This document shows positions 43,535-52,778 of a stretch of DNA of 64,000 nt, piece after piece. The position numbers and the translations under genes were made by a program. The first letter of the stretch is position 1, and every line of letters starts with the position of its first letter. The stretch lies in assembly GCF_013410405.1 (NCBI RefSeq), contig NZ_JACCFK010000001.1, forward strand, positions 3,968,001 to 4,032,000. Reading direction: 5' to 3'. The stretch is from Amycolatopsis endophytica (lineage in GTDB: Bacteria; Actinomycetota; Actinomycetes; Mycobacteriales; Pseudonocardiaceae). The notes below the pieces were generated by a model. It searched no databases, was not told the origin of the DNA, and saw only the letters and a program-made list of their open reading frames with translations.

Positions 43535-44758
43535 TTAAGCCAGCAGGTCGGCGAAGTCCGGTTCCGCGGCCGGCACCGGGACGGGGACGGGTTCCGGGGC
43601 GGGCAGCCGCCGGTGCAGTTCCTCGGTCCAATGCAGCATCGCGCGCGGCCGGTCCCAGCCCGCCGCGCCGACGAGCTGCCCGCCGCGCACGAACCCGGTG
43701 ATCCCGGGCGCGAGCTGCACCGTGTCCTCGGCGAGCGAGGGCATGCCGACCATCTGCAGCCGCGCGTCGTAGAGGCTGGACCAGGCTCGCGGCATCGGCG
43801 TGAACGGTTGCGCGCCGAGGCGGCCGTTCATGAGGTTTTCCGCTGCGGCGCGGCCGGATTCGACCGCGTTGAGCCAGTGTTCGACCCGCCGTGGCACCTC
43901 GTCGAAGCGCAGGTTGGGCCAGCACGCGACGTCACCGGCGACCACGACATCGTCCGCGCCCTCGGCGAACAGCGTCGCCTCGCACAGCACGCCGTCCTCG
44001 ATCACCAAACCGGATCCGCGCAGCCAGTCCACCGCGGGCACGCTGCCGATCGCCAGCACGACGCAGCTGGCCACGACGAGCTTGTTGTTCGTCAGGTGCA
44101 GGCCGAACGCGTCCTTCGTGCTGATCCAGTGCCGCACCTCCGACCGCATCGCCAGGTGCGCACGGTGCCGCAGCTGGATGTCGCTGACGGATTCGGCGAT
44201 GCGGGTGCCGAACCGGTGCAGCGGCGCGCGGGCGTGCCCGACGAGCGTCACGTCGCGGCCCATCTGCCGCATGCTCGCGGCGAACTCGCAGCCGATCAGC
44301 CCGCTGCCGATCACCACCGCCGGTTTGCTGCTGGCCGCCAGCGCCTTGCGGATCGCGGCCGCGTCCTCCACGGTGCGCAGCACGCGCACGCGCGGGTCGT
44401 GCCGCGGGGAGCCGGGCAGGTGGCGGGGCACCACGCCGGTCGCGACGACCAGCCCGTCGTACCACAGCTCCTCGCCGCCGGGCAGGTGCACGACCCGCTG
44501 CAGCGTGTCCAGGTGCGTGGCGCGCGTGCCCAGCCGCCAGTGCGCGTCGAGGTCGGTGTAGGCCTGCAACGTCGCGTCGGGTGGCCGGATCGTGCCCATC
44601 GTCAGCTGCTTGGACACCATCGGCCGGTGGTAGGGCCTGCGCGCCTCGTCGCCGACGATCACCAGTTCACCGTCGAAACCCAGTTCCCGCAGGCGTTCCG
44701 CGGCACGCAGCCCGGCCACGCCCGCCCCGACGATCACGATCCGGTCGCCGTCACTCAT
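43535..44758 (-). CDS. FAD-dependent ferredoxin reductase
   Basis: The product (407 residues) is a two-dinucleotide-binding oxidoreductase of the ferredoxin/rubredoxin/putidaredoxin reductase type. The FAD site is 'IVIVGAGVAGLRAAERLRELG'; 'RPYHRPMVSKQL' is the family's Tyr/Arg motif. The NAD(P)H site is 'AVVIGSGLIGCEFAASM', and a second FAD contact is 'ADDVVVAGDVACW'. It passes electrons from NAD(P)H to the ferredoxin encoded just upstream. An overlap of eight bases with that gene, and the downstream position in a five-gene unit, make it the cytosolic input side of the redox operon. Confidence 0.9.
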   Translation of the reverse strand: MSDGDRIVIVGAGVAGLRAAERLRELGFDGELVIVGDEARRPYHRPMVSKQLTMGTIRPPDATLQAYTDLDAHWRLGTRATHLDTLQRVVHLPGGEELWYDGLVVATGVVPRHLPGSPRHDPRVRVLRTVEDAAAIRKALAASSKPAVVIGSGLIGCEFAASMRQMGRDVTLVGHARAPLHRFGTRIAESVSDIQLRHRAHLAMRSEVRHWISTKDAFGLHLTNNKLVVASCVVLAIGSVPAVDWLRGSGLVIEDGVLCEATLFAEGADDVVVAGDVACWPNLRFDEVPRRVEHWLNAVESGRAAAENLMNGRLGAQPFTPMPRAWSSLYDARLQMVGMPSLAEDTVQLAPGITGFVRGGQLVGAAGWDRPRAMLHWTEELHRRLPAPEPVPVPVPAAEPDFADLLA

Positions 44759-44969
44759 CGAAGACCCCCTTGATCTGGATGGCCTGCATGGGGCAGCTCC
44801 GGGCCGCCGCGACGGCGGGTTCCCAGTCCTCCTCGGTGATCCGCGGCCGGTAGCGCAGGCGCCCGTTGCGTTCCAGCTCGAAGACCTCCGGCGCCTCCCA
44901 CTGGCAGGTGCCGAACAGTTCGCACCGCTCGTTGTCCACGCTCACGCGTGGTCCCTTGCGCAGTTTCAC
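44751..44969 (-). CDS. [3Fe-4S]-type ferredoxin
   Basis: The 72-residue product has cysteines 16, 22 and 59 in 'RCELFGTC' and 'ARSCPMQAI', i.e. C-x5-C...C-P. The position that would hold the second cysteine of a [4Fe-4S] motif is not cysteine, so a [3Fe-4S] cluster is likely, as in the ferredoxins that serve cytochromes P450. No P450 gene is present in the window. The GTG start at 44969 is preceded by GAGGAG and overlaps the stop of the haem membrane protein by four bases (GTGA), so the redox pair is coupled to it. Confidence 0.9.
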   Translation of the reverse strand: MKLRKGPRVSVDNERCELFGTCQWEAPEVFELERNGRLRYRPRITEEDWEPAVAAARSCPMQAIQIKGVFDE

Positions 44970-45568
44970 ACGAGCTCCTCGACCAGGCCGATGCGTTCGA
45001 GCACCCGCGCGGGCAGGAAGCGCAGCACGGCCAGCGTCACGGTCGGCACGAGCAGCGTGATCCCGCCCAGCCACAGCAACGCGAGATGACCGTTGGCGAT
45101 CGCCCCGAAGAACGAGTGCAGCGCGGTCAGCGCGACCGCGGGATAGGCGAGCCGGTGCACCCACAGCCAGCGGCGGTAGGCGGTGTAGCGCTGCAGGCCG
45201 GCGGTGAGCGCGACGGCGAACATCAGCTCCAGGCCGATGATCCCGAAACTGTGCCGCGCCAGCCCGTTGAACGGCACGGTCAGCTGCACCACGGTGAACG
45301 CGTCGCTGGTCAGGAACAGGAACGAGAACGCGTGCACCACGCCGAAGGCCAGCGCCAGCGTGGCGAGGGCGACGTGCCCGCTGCGCAGCGCCTTGCGGCC
45401 GGTGACGTTGCGGACCCATCCGGTGGCGGTGAGGACGCCCCAGCACAGGGTCAGGCACAGGAACGCGTACGCCAGCCGCGCGGAGAACGCCGCGACACCA
45501 CGCAAACCGGTGTCCGCCGTCTGCTGCGCGAGCGGCATCAGGGAGTCGAGGGCCGGGGTCACGGGCAC
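44966..45568 (-). CDS. Ferric-reductase-like haem b membrane protein
   Basis: The product (200 residues) has about six membrane helices. Two helices carry histidine pairs with the spacing of bis-haem ferric reductase-like domains: His65/His79 (14 apart, 'GHVALATLALAFGVVHAF') and His138/His151 (13 apart, 'WVHRLAYPAVALTALHSF'). There is no attached FAD/NADPH domain, so electrons must come from a partner, most simply the ferredoxin and reductase encoded directly downstream. It could move electrons across the membrane to an external acceptor. The likely start is GTG 45568; GTG 45562 is an alternative. Confidence 0.85.
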   Translation of the reverse strand: MPVTPALDSLMPLAQQTADTGLRGVAAFSARLAYAFLCLTLCWGVLTATGWVRNVTGRKALRSGHVALATLALAFGVVHAFSFLFLTSDAFTVVQLTVPFNGLARHSFGIIGLELMFAVALTAGLQRYTAYRRWLWVHRLAYPAVALTALHSFFGAIANGHLALLWLGGITLLVPTVTLAVLRFLPARVLERIGLVEELV

Positions 45569-45574
45569 CGCCGG

Positions 45575-46303
45575 TCAGGTTTCACTCGCGGGGACATGCT
45601 TTTCTCCTGGTCTTCTTCGCTTGGCGGGATGGCGGATCAGCCACAGCACGAGCACCGTCGCTCCGCACAGCAGCGCGGCCAGTACGACGGTGGCGAGGAT
45701 GTCGGTGGCCGCCAGGTCGAGTGCCGCTCCGGCGGAGGCGGACGCGGTGCCGCTCACCGGCTCGGGGAGCTGGGTGTAGTCGACCAGCCCGGTGCTCTCC
45801 AGCAACGTGATGTGCCGGAGCACCACCTGGTTCGCCGAGGCGGCGAACGCGCGGATCTCGTCGTCGCGGGTGTTCGCCCGCACCTGCGCGATGATGCCGA
45901 AGATGACGCCGTGCGCGGCGCGCAGGCGGTTGACGAAGACACGTTCGAACTCGGCGGGCGAGGGCGCGTCCCGCATCTCGGCGAGCCAGCGCTGCTGGTC
46001 GGCCGTCGGCTGATCGGGCAGGGTCACGCCGCGACGCTGCGCCAGCGCGCGCGTGGCCACGTCGAGACGCCCGTGGTCGACCATCAGCGTCATGCCGACG
46101 TCCTTCACGTGCTGGTCCCGCGCGCGCGTGCGCGCCCAGTCGCCCGCGGGCATCTCCCACAGCCCGGCCTGCCGCACCCGGATGATCAGATCGCGTTCGG
46201 CCGTACCCGGTTCGGTCTGCGCCATCACATTCCGTGGTACGGCCAATTGGACGAACGACACGATGAAAAGGAGCGCGAGGAGGCGTTTACGGACCGAAGG
46301 CAT
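45575..46303 (-). CDS. Exported DUF4142 protein with C-terminal membrane anchor
   Basis: The product (242 residues) has an N-terminal signal peptide (3-28, 'LLALLFIVSFVQLAV'). A helical DUF4142 domain follows: 'DLIIRVRQAGLWEMPAGDWARTRARDQHVKDVGMTLMVDHGRLD', a ferritin-like four-helix arrangement with many His/Glu/Asp. A C-terminal transmembrane helix (about 203-225) then leads to a basic cytoplasmic tail. DUF4142 proteins are exported or periplasmic and sometimes metal-linked; the function is unknown. It overlaps the COG4315 lipoprotein gene by 17 bases and lies six bases before the haem protein, so it is part of the same transcript. Confidence 0.85.
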   Translation of the reverse strand: MPSVRKRLLALLFIVSFVQLAVPRNVMAQTEPGTAERDLIIRVRQAGLWEMPAGDWARTRARDQHVKDVGMTLMVDHGRLDVATRALAQRRGVTLPDQPTADQQRWLAEMRDAPSPAEFERVFVNRLRAAHGVIFGIIAQVRANTRDDEIRAFAASANQVVLRHITLLESTGLVDYTQLPEPVSGTASASAGAALDLAATDILATVVLAALLCGATVLVLWLIRHPAKRRRPGEKHVPASET

Positions 46304-46799
46304 CGGATTGTCCCGGATCCGCGGTCACCCGCACTGTGTTCCCGTCGGGGGTGACGGGAAACCACGCGCCGCCCGCGCCGAGGCCGCCCGTTTCGCCGGG
46401 CATTTCGTCGGCCCGGTAACGGTAGAGCGGGAAACCGGCGAGCGTCACCTGGTCCGTTCCGTCGGAGCGCGTCATCGAACCGGCGAGCGCCGGGTCGATG
46501 CCGTGCAACTGCCGCGCCGCGGCGGCGGGCACGGGCTGCCACGCCCGGGTGCACGCGCTGTCACACGCGGACCGGGGCGGATCGGCATCGTCCTTGTCGT
46601 AGCGGTACAAAGTCAGTCCCGCACCGTCGACCACGATCTGGCCGAGGTCGAAGGCGCGCACGGCGTTCAGCGCCGGTGCCGCCTCCGGTGCGGACATCGA
46701 CCGGGGCGGCAACGGCGCGGGGGAGCCGGTGTCGCACGCGGTGAGCACCACGAGCGCCGCGACGGCGGCGAGCGGTGTCAGCGCAGGGGGTCGGGGCAC
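46287..46799 (-). CDS. COG4315 lipoprotein, single domain (Yx[FWY]xxD motif)
   Basis: The product (170 residues) is a lipoprotein with signal peptide and lipobox ending at Cys22 ('VLTAC'). The mature part carries one secreted-repeat domain: 'GLTLYRYDKD' (Tyr65-x-Tyr67-x2-Asp70), 'PPRSACDSACTRAW' (Cys79 and Cys83, a C-x3-C pair) and 'TLAGFPLYRYRADEMPGE'. The family function is unknown. It is the first gene of the redox operon and is preceded by a sigma-L-like promoter. Being extracellular and carrying a conserved cysteine pair, it is a candidate external redox or metal partner of the haem membrane protein, which is inference. Confidence 0.88.
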   Translation of the reverse strand: MPRPPALTPLAAVAALVVLTACDTGSPAPLPPRSMSAPEAAPALNAVRAFDLGQIVVDGAGLTLYRYDKDDADPPRSACDSACTRAWQPVPAAAARQLHGIDPALAGSMTRSDGTDQVTLAGFPLYRYRADEMPGETGGLGAGGAWFPVTPDGNTVRVTADPGQSDAFGP

Positions 46800-46868
46800 G
46801 TCGGTAAGCCTTTCTGTGGATCCACAGTGGACAAAAAGGTCGCGGTACGGGGGAAACCGTCAGCGAGG

Positions 46869-46896
46869 GATACGACCGGGGCGTGGACCCGGTTCA
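46869..46896 (-). promoter_or_regulatory. SigL-like ECF promoter of the redox operon
   Basis: On the minus strand TGAACC (46896-46891) is followed by exactly 16 bases and CGTATC (46874-46869). This lies 70 bases ahead of the COG4315 lipoprotein start at 46799. The same pattern recurs at 48246 and 49760 and resembles published mycobacterial sigma-L promoters. Confidence 0.7.
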
Positions 46897-46949
46897 AAGA
46901 ATCTCGCGAAAAATTTCGTACTGGACTCACCAGCCGGAATGACGCAAAG

Positions 46950-47510
46950 ATGTGCGCCGTGGGCCGCCACAGCCGAATTCTCCGTTCCGTGGTCGTCCCT
47001 GTGCCCGATCCGGTACAGGACGACGATCTCGCCACGGCGTTGTACCGGGAGTTCGGCCGCCCGCTGCTCGCGTTCGTGATCACCCTGACCGGGGGTGACC
47101 GGCTGTGGGCCGAGGACGTCGTGCAGGAAACCCTGATCAGGGCCTGGCGCAACGCCGACAAGCTCGACCGGGAGCCGGAGATGCTGCGTGCCTGGTTGCA
47201 CACCGTGGCCCGCCGCATCGTCATCGACGGCTGGCGCAGCCGCCGCGCGCGGCCGCAGGAGGTCGAGGAACCCGACGCGAACTTGGTCGGGGTGCCGGAC
47301 GAATCGGACAGGACTCTGGCCGCGATGATGCTCTACGAAGCACTGCAGACTCTGTCCGCGGAGCACCGTGAGGCGGTTCTGCAGACCTACCTGCAGGACC
47401 GCACGGTCAACGAGGCGGCCGCGAAGCTCGGTGTGCCGCCGGGCACGGTGAAGTCCCGGATCTACCACGCGGTCCGGGCGTTGCGCCGCGCGCTGAAGGA
47501 GCGGGGATGA
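46950..47510 (+). CDS. ECF RNA polymerase sigma factor, SigL-like (first of two)
   Basis: The product (186 residues) has sigma region 2 'LYREFGRPLLAFVITLTGGDRLWAEDVVQETLIRAWRNADKL' and region 4 'LSAEHREAVLQTYLQDRTVNEAAAKLGVPPGTVKSRIYHAVRALRRAL'. It belongs to the ECF class and resembles mycobacterial SigL. ATG 46950 is used; GTG 46989 and GTG 47001 are possible shorter starts, and the ribosome-binding site does not settle it. Its stop overlaps the start of the anti-sigma gene (ATGA). It is divergent from the redox operon, whose promoter lies within this shared gap. I see no copy of the TGAAC motif on the plus strand ahead of this gene. Confidence 0.88.
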   Translation: MCAVGRHSRILRSVVVPVPDPVQDDDLATALYREFGRPLLAFVITLTGGDRLWAEDVVQETLIRAWRNADKLDREPEMLRAWLHTVARRIVIDGWRSRRARPQEVEEPDANLVGVPDESDRTLAAMMLYEALQTLSAEHREAVLQTYLQDRTVNEAAAKLGVPPGTVKSRIYHAVRALRRALKERG

Positions 47511-48205
47511 GCGGCGTGGGCAAGGTGACGCACACCGACATCGCCGCCTACGTCCTCGGCGTGCTCGACGACGCCGACAACGCGGCGTTCGAAGCGCACC
47601 TGCTGGACTGCCCCAACTGCCAGCTCGACCTCCTGGAACTACACGGCCTGCCGGACATCCTGAACGACGTCCGCCGGTACTGGCCGGAGCCGCCGGTGCC
47701 CGCGCCGCGGGTGCTCGCGCCGATGCTCGACGAGGTCGCCGACATCCGGCGGCGCCGCACGCTGGTGCGCCGCCTGGTGGCCGTCGCGGCCCTGCTGCTG
47801 ATCATCGCGGGCCCACTGGTGACGCTGGCCGTCACGCCGTCGCAGGCCCCGGCGCCCGCCGTGGCGAGCGGGCCCCCGCCGCCCCCGCCCCCGCCGACGA
47901 CGGGCGGGAGCCGCTTCACCGGCAGCGAAACCGGTCAGGCACTGCGCTCCGAGGTGTTCGTGATGCCGACCGAGTGGGGCGCGGCGGTGCGGCTCGACCT
48001 GTCCGGCGTCAGCGGGCCGCTGCGCTGCCACCTCGTCGCGGTCGACTGGGCCGGGCGGCAGGAGACGGTGGCGAGCTGGACCGTGCCCGCCGTGAAGACC
48101 GAGCCGATGCTCATCTCCGGCGGCACCGCGTTCGAGCCACAGGACATCGAGAAGTTCCAGATCCGCACGGAGTCCGGTGCGGTCGTCGCCAGCATCGAGC
48201 GCTGA
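47507..48205 (+). CDS. Zinc-binding anti-sigma factor (RslA-like), first of two
   Basis: The product (232 residues) has a cytoplasmic anti-sigma domain with the ZAS motif 'HLLDCPNCQLDL' (His-x3-Cys-x2-Cys) after 'DIAAYVLGVLDDADNAAFEA'. A single transmembrane helix ('LVAVAALLLIIAGPLVTLAV', about 88-107), a Pro-rich linker, and an external C-terminal domain of about 100 residues follow ('RLDLSGVSGPLRCHLVAVDWAGRQETVASW'). The design implies that a change outside the membrane, or redox loss of zinc, frees the sigma factor. It overlaps the sigma gene by four bases. Confidence 0.9.
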   Translation: MSGVGKVTHTDIAAYVLGVLDDADNAAFEAHLLDCPNCQLDLLELHGLPDILNDVRRYWPEPPVPAPRVLAPMLDEVADIRRRRTLVRRLVAVAALLLIIAGPLVTLAVTPSQAPAPAVASGPPPPPPPPTTGGSRFTGSETGQALRSEVFVMPTEWGAAVRLDLSGVSGPLRCHLVAVDWAGRQETVASWTVPAVKTEPMLISGGTAFEPQDIEKFQIRTESGAVVASIER

Positions 48206-48245
48206 ACAGGAAGTATAACGACAAGATAACGGCAAGGTCGCGTTC

Positions 48246-48273
48246 TGAACTCGGCCGGACGTTGGTCCGTATC
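48246..48273 (+). promoter_or_regulatory. SigL-like ECF promoter of the DUF1996 gene
   Basis: TGAACT (48246-48251), a 16-base spacer and CGTATC (48268-48273) precede the DUF1996 start at 48342 by 68 bases. The spacer length is the same as at the two other sites. Confidence 0.68.
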
Positions 48274-48341
48274 CCTCTGTGGCGGGCTCGGGGGAGCCGT
48301 TCCGTCCCACATCCCCACCCACATCCGAGGTGAGCACACCC

Positions 48342-49751
48342 ATGGCCCGAAACGAAGGCAGGCACCGCGTCCCGCGCCGGACCAAGATCGCGACACTGGC
48401 GCTCGGCATGGCGCTCGCGGCCGCCGGCGTCACGTTCGCCACCACCGCCGGTGACCCCGGCCAGGCCGGTGCCGACGAGGTCGACCCCGCGTTCTTCGTC
48501 GACATCACCACCGTCGCCCCGAACGTGACCGAGGTGCGGCCGAACCGCCGTGCCTCCACCGGCACGTTCACGGTCGACTGCGGCCGCAACGAGAACGGCC
48601 ACTTCAACCCGGACAACTTCATCGCCCAGCCCGGCGTGCGCAACGGCGCCCAGCACCTGCACGACTACGTCGGCAACCTCTCCACCAACGCCGACTCGAC
48701 CAACGAAAGCCTGCTGCGCGCCGGGACCACGTGCCGCAACGGGGACAAGTCGACCTACTTCTGGCCGGTGCTGCGCATCGACCGCGAGGACGAGGAGGAG
48801 GCCAACGAGCCGGAAGACGCCGCCGGACTGGCGGCCCAGCGCGCCGCGGCCGAGGAAACCGAGGACGTCACGCAGGTCGAATGCCCGGACGTGGCCAGCC
48901 AGCTCGAAGAGGTCCCGGACGCGGCGATGGAGGCCGTGGACGCCGAACTGGAGGCGCTGGACCAGCAGGAGGCCACCGCCGACGAGCAGATCGCCGCGGA
49001 CCCCACCCAGGAGGCCGCGGTGCTGGAACCGTTGCGGCAGCAGCGGTCGGCCAGCATGGAGCGCATCAGCCAGGCCACCGGGCAGCAGCTCGACCAGGCG
49101 CAGGCCGGGTGCGCGATCGAGGACGCCCAGCGCCGTGGCATTCCCGACGGCGACGAGAACGGTGAAGGCGACGACGCCGAAGAGCCGCCCGCGGACGACA
49201 ACAGCGAGATCGGCGGCAACGACGGTGAGATCCAGCGGCCGGAGTCGGTGAACCTGACCTTCCGCGGCAGCCCGGTCGGGCCGGTGCGGGCGATGCCGAA
49301 GTTCCTCCGCGTGCTCTACGGCGACGCCAAGCAGGGCACCAACGGGCCGAAGAACGCCCGCGCCAGCTGGACGTGCACCGGCTTCGAGGACCGGCTGATC
49401 GATCAGTACCCGATCTGCCCGGAAGGCAGCAAGGTCGAGCGCATCCACGACTTCCCGAGCTGCTGGGACGGCCGCAACATCGACAGCGCCAACCACCGCG
49501 ACCACATCGTCTTCCCCGAGGCCGACGGCCGGTGCCAGCGCGGGTTCCGGGCGGTGCCGCAGCTGCGCGTCACCCTGGTCTACGACGTGCCGCGCGACGT
49601 CCAGGTCGCCGGTCAGTACAAAGTGGACTCATTCCCGGAGGAGAGCCACAACCCGAAGTCCGACCACGACGACTTCGCCAACGTGATGTCGCAGCGGATC
49701 ATGAACCGGCTCGTCTGGTGCGTCAACCGGGATCGCACGTGCAGCGAGTGA
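48342..49751 (+). CDS. Secreted DUF1996 protein with an acidic coiled-coil insert
   Basis: The product (469 residues) has a signal peptide (about 1-45, 'IATLALGMALAAAGVTFA') and the two halves of a DUF1996 domain: 'QHLHDYVGN' at 104-112, and 'FPSCWDGRN' with 'HRDHIVFP' at 371-392. The latter is the family's diagnostic region with conserved Cys, Trp, Asp and His. Between them, residues about 148-300 form an insert rich in Glu/Ala/Gln, predicted helical or coiled-coil, ending in an acidic tail; two cysteines (181 and 257) bracket it. DUF1996 is best known from fungal secreted proteins and has no assigned function. It stands alone between the two sigma loci behind its own SigL-like promoter. Confidence 0.87.
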   Translation: MARNEGRHRVPRRTKIATLALGMALAAAGVTFATTAGDPGQAGADEVDPAFFVDITTVAPNVTEVRPNRRASTGTFTVDCGRNENGHFNPDNFIAQPGVRNGAQHLHDYVGNLSTNADSTNESLLRAGTTCRNGDKSTYFWPVLRIDREDEEEANEPEDAAGLAAQRAAAEETEDVTQVECPDVASQLEEVPDAAMEAVDAELEALDQQEATADEQIAADPTQEAAVLEPLRQQRSASMERISQATGQQLDQAQAGCAIEDAQRRGIPDGDENGEGDDAEEPPADDNSEIGGNDGEIQRPESVNLTFRGSPVGPVRAMPKFLRVLYGDAKQGTNGPKNARASWTCTGFEDRLIDQYPICPEGSKVERIHDFPSCWDGRNIDSANHRDHIVFPEADGRCQRGFRAVPQLRVTLVYDVPRDVQVAGQYKVDSFPEESHNPKSDHDDFANVMSQRIMNRLVWCVNRDRTCSE

Positions 49752-49759
49752 AAGAAGCC

Positions 49760-49787
49760 TGAACCGGCGGGCGGCGGCGGACGTGTT
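49760..49787 (+). promoter_or_regulatory. SigL-like ECF promoter of the COG4315-sigma-anti-sigma operon
   Basis: TGAACC (49760-49765), a 16-base spacer and CGTGTT (49782-49787) precede the lipoprotein start at 49826 by 38 bases. Since the second sigma gene is downstream in the same unit, the site would make it autoregulated. Confidence 0.7.
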
Positions 49788-49825
49788 CAGGGCGCCGGAG
49801 ATGCCCAGACACGCAAGGAGACGAC

Positions 49826-50731
49826 ATGAGTCCGCGTTTCGTCCTTCCCGCCGCCGCCCTCGCCGGACTCGCGCTCCTCGGTGCCTGCGGGTACGGCGAG
49901 CCCGAGCTCGCGGCGCCGGTCGTGATCCAGCAGGCGGCGGCCGAGTCCGCGGTCGGCGTGGTCGCGTCCGACGTCAGCGGGCTCGGGCCAGTGCTGACCG
50001 ACGCCAACGGGATGACGCTGTACCGGTTCGATTCCGACACCGCGAAGCCACCCAAGTCCGCCTGCGAGGGCGAGTGCGCCACCACGTGGCCGCCGCTCGT
50101 CGCGGACGGTGCGGTCGACGTGCGCGGCGTGGACTCGCGGCTCGTCGGCACGGTCACCCGCGCCGATGGCACCCAGCAGGTGACGGTCGGCGGCTGGCCG
50201 GTCTACCGCTACGCCAAGGACACCGTGCGCGGTGAGGCCAAGGGCCAGGGCGTCGGCGGCACCTGGGCGGCGATCACGCCGACCGGCGCCAAGGCCGCCA
50301 CGCCGGAGACCGCGATCCGCACCACGAACATCCCCGGCCTGGACACCGTCCTCACCGACGGCGAGGGCCGCACGATCTACCTGTTCACCAAGGATGCGAA
50401 GAACCCGCCGAAGACCACCTGCGAAGCCGAATGCGCCACCGCCTGGCCGCCCGTCGTCGCCCGCGGCGAGACGCGGATCGAGGGCCTGGACCCGAAGCTG
50501 GTCGGCACGGTCACCCGGCCCGACGGGACCGAGCAGGTCACCGTCGGCGGCTGGCCCGTCTACACCTACGCCAAGGACACCGCGCCCGGTCAGGCCACCG
50601 GCCACACCGTGGGCGGCGTCTGGTTCGCGCTCGAAGCAGGCGGCTGCAAGATCTCCGCGGACAAGAAGCCTCTCGCCACCACCGCCACGCCGGGCACGGC
50701 GCCGAGCAGCTCCGGTGGCTACGACTACTGA
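49826..50731 (+). CDS. COG4315 lipoprotein with two tandem domains
   Basis: The product (301 residues) has a lipoprotein signal with lipobox 'LLGAC' (Cys21) and two repeats of the secreted COG4315 domain (about 57-154 and 172-272). Each shows Yx[FWY]xxD (Tyr67-Asp72 and Tyr186-Asp191), then a C-x3-C pair exactly 14 residues after the tyrosine (Cys81/85 and Cys200/204), then 'GGWPVY-YAKDT'. The same 14-residue spacing is found in the single-domain paralogue at 46287-46799. The last 30 residues are Thr/Ser/Pro-rich. It is the first gene of a unit with the second sigma/anti-sigma pair. Confidence 0.9.
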   Translation: MSPRFVLPAAALAGLALLGACGYGEPELAAPVVIQQAAAESAVGVVASDVSGLGPVLTDANGMTLYRFDSDTAKPPKSACEGECATTWPPLVADGAVDVRGVDSRLVGTVTRADGTQQVTVGGWPVYRYAKDTVRGEAKGQGVGGTWAAITPTGAKAATPETAIRTTNIPGLDTVLTDGEGRTIYLFTKDAKNPPKTTCEAECATAWPPVVARGETRIEGLDPKLVGTVTRPDGTEQVTVGGWPVYTYAKDTAPGQATGHTVGGVWFALEAGGCKISADKKPLATTATPGTAPSSSGGYDY

Positions 50732-50756
50732 CCCCACCAGCGAGGAGTGAGTGCGG

Positions 50757-51308
50757 ATGCCGGTGCTACGGGCCGCGAAACGCGCGGCGGTCGCCGACGA
50801 AGCCCTGATCCGGGCGCTGTACGAGGAGCACGGGCGCGCCTTGCTCGCCTACGCCACCCGCCTGACTGGTGACCACGCCGCCGCCGAGGACGCCGTGCAG
50901 GAGACGCTGGTGCGGGCGTGGCGGCATCCGGACACCCTCGTCAACGGCAAGGGGTCGGTGCGTGGATGGTTGCTGACCGTGACGCGCAACATCATCGCCG
51001 ACCGCTACCGCGCGAAGGCGGCCCGGCCCGCGGAGGTGGCGGAAGTGCCCGCGGCGCCACCGGTCGCGGCCGATCATTCCGACGCCGTGGTCGACTCGAT
51101 GGTCGTGCTCGACGCGATGGAAGCGCTTTCGGCCGAGCACCGCGACGTGCTGAGGGAGATCTACTTCCGCGGCCGGAGCGTCGCCGAGGCCGCGGAAACT
51201 CTCGGGGTTCCGCCGGGCACGGTGAAGTCCCGGTCGTACTACGCGCTCAGAGCGATGCGCCAGACGTTCGGCGGCCGTCGCGCCGTGGTCGGAGAGGTGG
51301 CCGGATGA
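50757..51308 (+). CDS. sigL: ECF RNA polymerase sigma factor, SigL-like (second)
   Basis: The product (183 residues) has region 2 'LIRALYEEHGRALLAYATRLTGDHAAAEDAVQETLVRAWRHPDTL' and region 4 'LSAEHRDVLREIYFRGRSVAEAAETLGVPPGTVKSRSYYALRAM'. The N-terminal stretch is closer to M. tuberculosis SigL than the first paralogue is. ATG 50757 is preferred to GTG 50751 because the GAGGAG ribosome-binding site is nine bases away from the ATG but only three from the GTG. It starts 26 bases after the lipoprotein stop codon and overlaps the anti-sigma start. It probably recognises the TGAAC-N16-CGT sites. Confidence 0.85.
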   Translation: MPVLRAAKRAAVADEALIRALYEEHGRALLAYATRLTGDHAAAEDAVQETLVRAWRHPDTLVNGKGSVRGWLLTVTRNIIADRYRAKAARPAEVAEVPAAPPVAADHSDAVVDSMVVLDAMEALSAEHRDVLREIYFRGRSVAEAAETLGVPPGTVKSRSYYALRAMRQTFGGRRAVVGEVAG

Positions 51309-51982
51309 CGACGAGTCACGATCCCGGAGCGCTCGCCGCGTGGCTGCTCGGAGCCCTCGAGCCGGAGGAGATGCGCGCGATGGAGCAGCACCTGTCCTCG
51401 TGCCGGCGGTGCCAGGCCGAGGTGGCGTCACTGCGGATGGCGCGCGATGCACTGCAGGTCGTCCCCCCGGAAGCGATGCTCGACGGTCCTCCGGAGGGCA
51501 GCGATCTCTTGTTGCGGCGCACCCTGAACCAGGTGCGGTCCGAACGCGCGTCCCGGGTGCGCCGCAACCGTCTGGTGACAGCCGCGGCGGCGGTGGCGGT
51601 CGCGATCGCGGTGGCGGCCGGGGGAGCGGTGATCGGCCGCACCACGGCGCCGTCGTCCGTGACGGCGCAGGAGCCCGGCACGCGGAACGTGTCGGCCACC
51701 GATGCCGCAACGGGCGCCTCGATGTCGGTGGCGGTGCGCCCAGCGGCGGGCTGGGTCCGGTTGTCGGCCTCGGTCGAGGGCATCCCGCAGGGCCAGAAGT
51801 GCCGCCTGGTGGTGTTCTCCCGCGACGGCTCGCGTGTGGAAGCAGGCAGCTGGCTGGTGTCGGCCGCCGGGGCACGGGAAGGCACCGCGCTGGACGGTTT
51901 CGCCCTGGTGTCGCCCGCGGACGTGGCCTCGGTGGCGGTGGAGAACCTCGACGGACGGCGATTCGTGGAGGTGCGGGTGTAG
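51305..51982 (+). CDS. rslA: Zinc-binding anti-sigma factor (RslA-like), second
   Basis: The product (225 residues) repeats the layout of the first anti-sigma protein. A cytoplasmic ZAS motif 'HLSSCRRCQAEVASL' follows 'PGALAAWLLGALEPEEMRAMEQ'. A transmembrane helix comes next ('LVTAAAAVAVAIAVAAGGAVIG', about 89-110), and then an external domain with 'GWVRLSASVEGIPQGQKCRLVVFSRDGSRVEAGSW' that has the same shape as the first protein's (a single external Cys, small beta-rich domain). It overlaps the sigma gene by four bases (ATGA) and is the last gene of the unit before a composite repeat. Confidence 0.88.
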   Translation: MTTSHDPGALAAWLLGALEPEEMRAMEQHLSSCRRCQAEVASLRMARDALQVVPPEAMLDGPPEGSDLLLRRTLNQVRSERASRVRRNRLVTAAAAVAVAIAVAAGGAVIGRTTAPSSVTAQEPGTRNVSATDAATGASMSVAVRPAAGWVRLSASVEGIPQGQKCRLVVFSRDGSRVEAGSWLVSAAGAREGTALDGFALVSPADVASVAVENLDGRRFVEVRV

Positions 51983-52349: not shown

Positions 52350-52470
52350 CGCTTCGGCCAACACGCCGCCCGGAAGGGCCAACACGCCGCCCGGAGCGGC
52401 CAACACGCGCGTGTTGGCCGCTCCGGGCAGCGTGTTGGCTGCTCCGGGCGTCGAGTTGGCTGCTCCGGGC
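52350..52470. repeat. 21-bp head-to-head repeat array, 3 forward + 3 inverted units
   Basis: AACAC units begin at 52360, 52381 and 52402; inverted GTGTT-type units begin at 52411, 52432 and 52453. Steps are exactly 21 bases on each side, and the centre AACACGCGCGTGTT (52402-52415) is a perfect palindrome. The array is non-coding. Confidence 0.85.
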
Positions 52471-52778
52471 GATGGAGGTCCGGGCAGGTCGGAGTCCGGC
52501 TTGCTTGCGGGGCGACGTTGCTGGCTTGCCGCCGGGCGGCGCCGGTGCTGCCGTGAGCAGGTGGCTCGCGTTCCGCGCACCGCTTCCCACTGCGTCAGGC
52601 GCTACCAATGCCACAGTGGGGAACGTCCGGCTCAGGCGCCCGCGCCGCCGTCCACCGGGACGATTCAACATTCTGGCCCCGGTCACCCGACCCTGGTGCA
52701 GACCAGGTCGAATCCACCCAGAACGGCCCGCGAAGTCCATTGAGGTAACTCTCAGGAATGTGTGGCACCGTGGTCGCC
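52471..52778. other. Gene-free interval ahead of the response regulator
   Basis: I see no gene here. The promoter of the two-component operon must lie toward 52778. The segment also contains an 'AGGTCCGGGCAGGTCGGAGT...GGCTTGC' stretch that looks like a further decayed copy of the block preceding the array. Confidence 0.45.

Follow-up and report, generated by a model that had tools for sequence, protein, structure and literature searches.

A probable envelope redox regulon of Amycolatopsis endophytica under two paralogous SigL-like sigma factors

The window analysed here is a stretch of 64,000 nucleotides from the Amycolatopsis endophytica genome (contig NZ_JACCFK010000001.1, positions 3,968,001 to 4,032,000), in which two divergent gene groups fill positions 43535..51982. 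The closest named proteins in the databases come from Amycolatopsis, which by itself makes an origin in that genus very probable. A preliminary description of this block, made from the letters alone, had proposed a regulon in which one SigL-like extracytoplasmic function (ECF) sigma factor coordinates exported proteins and a membrane redox chain. The leftward group, on the minus strand, begins with LipA (46287..46799), a COG4315 lipoprotein with two PF03640 repeats by Pfam and a lipobox cysteine at residue 22. It is followed by a DUF4142 protein (45575..46303; PF13628, E 3.3e-16), for which hydropathy indicates hydrophobic segments at the N-terminus and the C-terminus, and by FRD (44966..45568; PF01794), a ferric-reductase-like transmembrane protein presumed to bind haem, with His 65, 79, 138 and 151 kept in 32/32 alignment rows and His106 in 31/32. 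The single-cluster ferredoxin (44751..44969; PF13459 and PF13370) has three invariant cysteines, at positions 16 and 22 (32/32 rows each) and 59 (31/31). Last comes an FAD/NAD(P)H ferredoxin reductase (43535..44758; Pyr_redox_2, PF07992, E 8.6e-44), whose closest NCBIfam models, dioxygenase ferredoxin-NAD reductases, score under their cut-off.

The rightward group, on the plus strand, comprises sig1, as1, DUF1996, LipB, sig2 and as2. The sigma factor sig1 (46989..47510; start uncertain, at 46950, 46989 or 47001) is placed in a SigL-like clade by its domains and by tree, as is the second SigL-like sigma factor, sig2 (50757..51308), by NCBIfam, Pfam, PDB match and tree. Each consists of sigma regions 2 and 4 only and adjoins a membrane anti-sigma with an H-x3-C-x2-C zinc motif, a make-up that matches the ECF/zinc anti-sigma (ZAS) kind, in which each anti-sigma would bind and release its sigma factor. 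The anti-sigmas as1 (47507..48205) and as2 (51305..51982) match PF13490, and as1 also matches PDB chain 3hug_B (E 1.3e-7), which we take to be RslA. The zinc motif and a single cysteine past the membrane segment are kept in 92/97 rows for as1 (Cys174) and 43/43 for as2 (Cys166), counting rows that include paralogues. The secreted DUF1996 protein (48342..49751; PF09362, E 9.4e-23) has 8 histidines and 10 cysteines that are invariant in 50/50 alignment rows. Domain scans thus bear out the zinc-finger membrane anti-sigmas, the COG4315 lipoproteins, the DUF1996 protein and the ferredoxin reductase, ferredoxin and ferric-reductase-like chain of the preliminary description; DUF4142, which it had not named as part of the regulon, is a core member.

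LipB (49826..50731), which ends 25 bases before sig2, contains PF03640 four times and two C-x3-C pairs, the pair in each half being invariant in 60/60 alignment rows. It belongs to the SCO0930 family of COG4315 lipoproteins (NCBIfam NF040526, 351.8 bits, cut-off 275), whereas LipA, at 144.7, falls under the cut-off. The predicted structure of LipB is confident (pLDDT 86.6) and Foldseek and VIA-align found no PDB counterpart to the model, making the protein a candidate new fold. No further PF03640 protein was found outside the block in this genome.

Three sites of the form TGAAC(C/T)-N16-CGT lie where the preliminary description had put them. P-lipA (TGAACC-N16-CGTATC; 46869..46896, minus strand) is 69 bases upstream of the likely start of LipA (46799), P-duf1996 (TGAACT-N16-CGTATC; 48246..48273, plus strand) 68 bases upstream of that of DUF1996 (48342) and P-lipB (TGAACC-N16-CGTGTT; 49760..49787, plus strand) 38 bases upstream of that of LipB (49826). 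Motif match and comparison mark all three as putative promoters. Their frequency exceeds that expected of random DNA: the 64 kb contain 3 exact matches where 0.04 would be expected, and none of 100 shuffles contains as many. The -10 elements are not alike, CGTATC occurring at two sites and CGTGTT at the third, and this difference proves systematic across loci.

The sites recur ahead of the same genes in related genomes. Comparison covered 121 stretches, namely the window, two sets of 20 and 80 named loci. The sig1 gene and a COG4315 gene occur together in 49 of these, 29 of which carry sites, giving 55 intergenic TGAAC(C/T)-N16-CGT sites before a block gene. The N16 spacer is found in 37 of 61 regions upstream of COG4315 genes and 15 of 21 upstream of DUF1996; other spacer lengths occur in 0-6 regions each, except for N10, created by an extra CGT, in 16 COG4315 regions. 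The site is thus present in 52/82 COG4315 and DUF1996 upstream regions, against an average of 0.11 and a maximum of 5 for 1074 permuted half-site patterns. Sense N16 sites precede DUF4142 in 1/34 and sig1 in 1/50 regions, and none was found before FRD or FADox (29 regions each), as1 (50), sig2 (12), as2 (11) or the response regulator gene (12). The motif therefore behaves as a conserved promoter and, as judged by comparison, the idea of a regulon is well supported. In LipA promoters, for example those of L088 and L090, the 16-base spacer is itself conserved (GTTTCCGGACCGTGTC), and a second CGT, six bases ahead of the -10 element, may be an overlapping operator.

Across the whole genome the pattern TGAAC-N17-CGTNT gives 48 matches against 10 for the reversed pattern. 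Half-sites alone do not define the proposed regulon, because most of the sites inspected outside the window lie inside likely genes; it is conservation and gene position that do so. There are 14 TGAAC(C/T) matches outside the window, 11 of which were inspected. The site lies within a likely gene in 7 of 10 stretches and is intergenic in 3, including one 32 bases before a DUF305 gene, while the eleventh adjoins a third sigma gene. That the shared sites might be chance matches or non-promoter repeats, as this loose scan could suggest, is hardly credible given the fixed spacer and the conserved position, together with the window enrichment, the permutation test and the co-occurrence within the genus described below.

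Two classes of site can be distinguished. Class I, CGTA(T), precedes LipA and DUF1996, whilst class II, CGTG(T), precedes the LipB-sig2 unit. The base after CGT is G in all 10 LipB-sig2 sites and A in 44 of the 45 others (55 sites, 29 loci), a split with a Fisher P value of 4e-10 that is overstated because the sequences are related and that was first seen, then tested, on the same sites. Only the sig2-type genes away from the block (L169-L177) are partly independent, and here G is found in 7 of the 8 whose site lies no more than about 0.8 kb ahead of sig2 (L169-L171 and L174-L177), the only site of L172 being about 2 kb off. M. tuberculosis SigL is described as preferring T-12 G-11 following CG, with His54 and Asp60 setting positions -12 and -11 (PMC6372665). 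The SigL-type G at -11 is therefore the base that marks the LipB-sig2 sites, A taking its place elsewhere. The residues matching His54/Asp60 are N/R in the window's sig1 and in most class I loci (H/R in L058), and H/N in 11 of 12 in-block sig2 proteins (R/D in L069).

The presence of class I sites goes with that of sig1. In a scan of 19 genomes of the genus, using exact class I sites (CGTATNC) and counting sig1 at at least 81% identity, the sites occur in 12 of 13 genomes with sig1 and in none of the 6 without, with 23 matches against 2 for the reversed pattern. The sole exception, L266 of G013, is an eroded block in which the class I site has gone and the class II site of LipB is kept; LipA, DUF4142, as1, DUF1996 and LipB are fragmented there. 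In the wider family a CGTATCC site was found in 76/220 genomes (125 sites in all; the reversed pattern gave 11). Among the 50 of these 220 genomes whose sig1 state came from the search (E at most 1e-45), the other 170 being left out, it is present in 16/21 with sig1 versus 5/29 without. Sig2 is missing from the stretch in 17 of the 29 loci with sites, although some of their genomes have a sig2-type gene elsewhere. In G024 and G028, where no gene at least 64% identical to sig2 was found, class I-type sites are still present (L056, L058). A sig1-clade sigma of G367 has a class I site 75 bases upstream.

The resemblance of both sigma factors to SigL stands in part. Each finds M. tuberculosis SigL as its best match in the PDB (103 bits for sig1, 141 for sig2), in keeping with a SigL-type assignment, but neither groups with it as an orthologue, since each falls in another supported clade of the tree. 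SigL itself joins, on a long branch, a third sigma factor of this genome (support 98/95). The gene for the latter (G000:C1:4460284; L178, 4459785-4460778) lies beside a divergent Rieske protein and a small membrane protein, with CGTG-type sites in both directions, one of them about ten bases before a likely start and perhaps leaderless. L179-L181 have similar pairs of sites.

Since class I sites track sig1 and the classes are split by a -10 base, it is most likely that sig1 drives the LipA, DUF4142, haem, ferredoxin and reductase operon together with DUF1996, and that sig2 drives LipB and itself. In the preliminary description a single sigma factor, probably the second, was taken to account for all three sites; sig1 would then have some other role. 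Sig2 is indeed the more SigL-like, outscoring sig1 both against SigL and against NCBIfam PRK09645 (214.3 versus 201.8, cut-off 202), and SigL-type motifs would be expected of either protein. Such an arrangement is nevertheless very improbable in view of the loci without sig2, of sig1 as the constant partner of class I sites, and of the -10 base that sets the sig2 unit apart in another class. Paralogous ECF sigma factors often cross-talk, and both might read all three sites with overlapping strength, A or G tuning the level of expression and not the identity of the reader, so as to form a feed-forward loop. The -35 element and spacer length are common to the two classes, and the minimal block of G011, made up of sig1, sig2 and FRD-ferredoxin-reductase, has class I sites some 300 bases upstream of FRD and some 200 upstream of sig2, which suggests that sig1 would be able to feed sig2. 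The near-perfect A/G split across several genera suggests selection for distinction, however, and extensive overlap of this kind is distinctly unlikely.

A number of observations weigh against a clean division of the sites between sig1 and sig2. That class I site before sig2 in G011 is one, and CGTATCC matches away from the sig1 locus in G025 and G252 are others. Several family-wide class I matches are coding or unrelated (8 of the 46 examined, as set out below), and the site is lacking in 20 of the 49 loci that contain both sig1 and COG4315, those 20 being from Streptomycetaceae, Micromonosporaceae, Actinomadura and some paralogues. None of 12 aligned loci has a sense site before sig1. Amongst the sig2-type genes away from the block, L173 has CGTAG before sig2, and other sites in L169-L177, not directly before sig2, vary between CGTT, CGTC, CGTA and CGTG; of the more distant sigma factors, L182 and L183 have CGTA and L184 has G. 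Many Streptomyces relatives of sig1 share the N/R pair but have no site nearby; on its own, therefore, the pair is no predictor of the site. Finally, the link to copper discussed below comes down to a DUF305 lipoprotein and a single, tentatively assigned CopA-like ATPase.

Class I sites also point to targets outside the block. Of the 23 genus sites, 18 are in the block and five outside, preceding a DUF305 lipoprotein in G000 (the present genome), in G002 and in G017, a heavy-metal P-ATPase frame with an HMA domain, a CPC motif and an uncertain start (G009), and an AAA-domain gene (G004). The DUF305 lipoprotein of this genome (L186; PF03713, E 8.5e-37) has an HH motif (PHHE) and is the one with the class I site 32 bases upstream. 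Downstream genes were examined for 46 sites, comprising 45 of the 125 family sites and that of G009. Those identified with Pfam include two COG4315-DUF4142 fusions (in two genomes), three DUF4142 proteins, one DUF305 protein, one sigma factor, the G009 ATPase, one DUF3455 protein, one M23 peptidase (308 bases off) and one solute-binding protein; a one-chain ferric reductase with an NAD-binding domain follows a site in another genus. Such fusions speak for a joint function of COG4315 and DUF4142. Two sites lead to the block LipA by sequence, three to other uncharacterised proteins, and 17 have no called gene. Four more (L238, L240, L249 and L252) lead to one secreted family, in several genomes, two members of which (L238 and L252) gave no Pfam match.

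Taken together, the sites and gene content probably represent an envelope redox regulon under two SigL-like sigma factors, paralogues with distinct preferences at the -10 element, of which sig1 is probably the main one. Held by as1, sig1 would read TGAAC(C/T)-N16-CGTAT and switch on LipA-DUF4142-FRD-ferredoxin-reductase, DUF1996 and the DUF305 lipoprotein elsewhere in the genome. Held by as2, sig2 would read TGAACC-N16-CGTGT and switch on LipB-sig2-as2, an autoregulatory unit that may also be fed from sig1 via read-through out of DUF1996. The probable trigger for release of the sigma factors by the anti-sigmas would be metal stress or the oxidation of thiols, detected on the outside, at the zinc finger, or at both. 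Electrons are predicted to pass from NAD(P)H to FAD, the small ferredoxin, the haem-b membrane protein and finally extracytoplasmic metal or thiol centres, the putative acceptors being the presumed metal-binding proteins COG4315 (C-x3-C), DUF4142/DUF305 and DUF1996. In its most specific form the proposal holds that duplicated SigL-like sigma factors have split one promoter by the -11 base, A for sig1 and G for sig2, with substitutions at the counterparts of SigL residues 54 and 60, and that they jointly run an undescribed electron-transfer system of the envelope which reduces these surface proteins from NAD(P)H via ferredoxin and haem b; this we advance tentatively, with slightly less than even confidence.

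We read the block as a metal/thiol-stress regulon, in which both signal and substrate are predictions. The metal theme comes from three sources: the DUF305 domain of CopM binds copper (PMC4335983); fungal DUF1996 mutants are sensitive to oxidation and to several metal ions, not to copper (PMC4738358); and M. tuberculosis requires SigL under iron limitation, as the defect of its mutants shows (PMC10449499). The metal may thus be copper or iron. A module for reductive iron acquisition or iron handling, as distinct from copper or oxidant defence, would suit the ferric-reductase-like FRD, the one-chain ferric reductase after a class I site and the low-iron role of SigL. The block genes scanned with Pfam include no recognised transporter or siderophore gene, however, and the copper binding of DUF305 in CopM points the other way, which leaves an iron module possible but rather doubtful.

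Several known systems share parts of this composition. Like SigL-RslA of M. tuberculosis, the block combines an ECF sigma factor of the same subfamily, a zinc-binding membrane anti-sigma, and envelope and secreted targets. TGAACC is the -35 part of the SigL promoter, and the TGAACC...CGT pattern is common to both systems. The sigma factor here that groups with SigL is nevertheless the third gene, sig1 and sig2 forming separate clades, and the sig1-linked sites have A where SigL prefers G at -11 (PMC6372665). Control of a COG4315 lipoprotein by an ECF sigma factor has already been published, SCO0930 being in the SigU regulon of Streptomyces coelicolor; the available part of that description does not mention a haem/ferredoxin chain, DUF4142 or DUF1996 (PMC6295645). 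MsrPQ, a periplasmic methionine sulphoxide reductase linked to copper and chlorine stress, likewise has a ferric-reductase-like haem-b membrane subunit passing electrons outward (see also PMC9302797). In the present system, by contrast, electrons would come from a dedicated ferredoxin, and the block genes scanned with Pfam include no recognisable MsrP-like gene for a molybdopterin partner. The DUF305 lipoprotein, with its HH motif and class I site, resembles CopM and is a putative copper binder by analogy; unlike the core genes, its own is located away from the block. Literature searches, limited to open-access papers, turned up no account of this combination of genes. COG4315, DUF4142, DUF305 and DUF1996, families of unknown or little-known function, would be brought under one regulator and given a specific hypothesis on redox and metals, while sig1 and sig2 would offer a natural ECF pair whose promoter discrimination can be probed through one base and two residues.

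Two further features were observed. Short repeats of the GGCCAACACGC/GTGTTGGC(CT)GCTCCGG type occupy 52355-52480, in the interval that separates the block from the response regulator gene. In all 10 fetched sig1 loci of the Micromonosporaceae type (L083-L086, L161, L162, L164 and L166-L168), TGAACC-N16-CGT is present on the opposite strand just past the as1 stop, oriented so that transcription would run back through the anti-sigma gene. Antisense transcription of an anti-sigma gene would be out of the ordinary.

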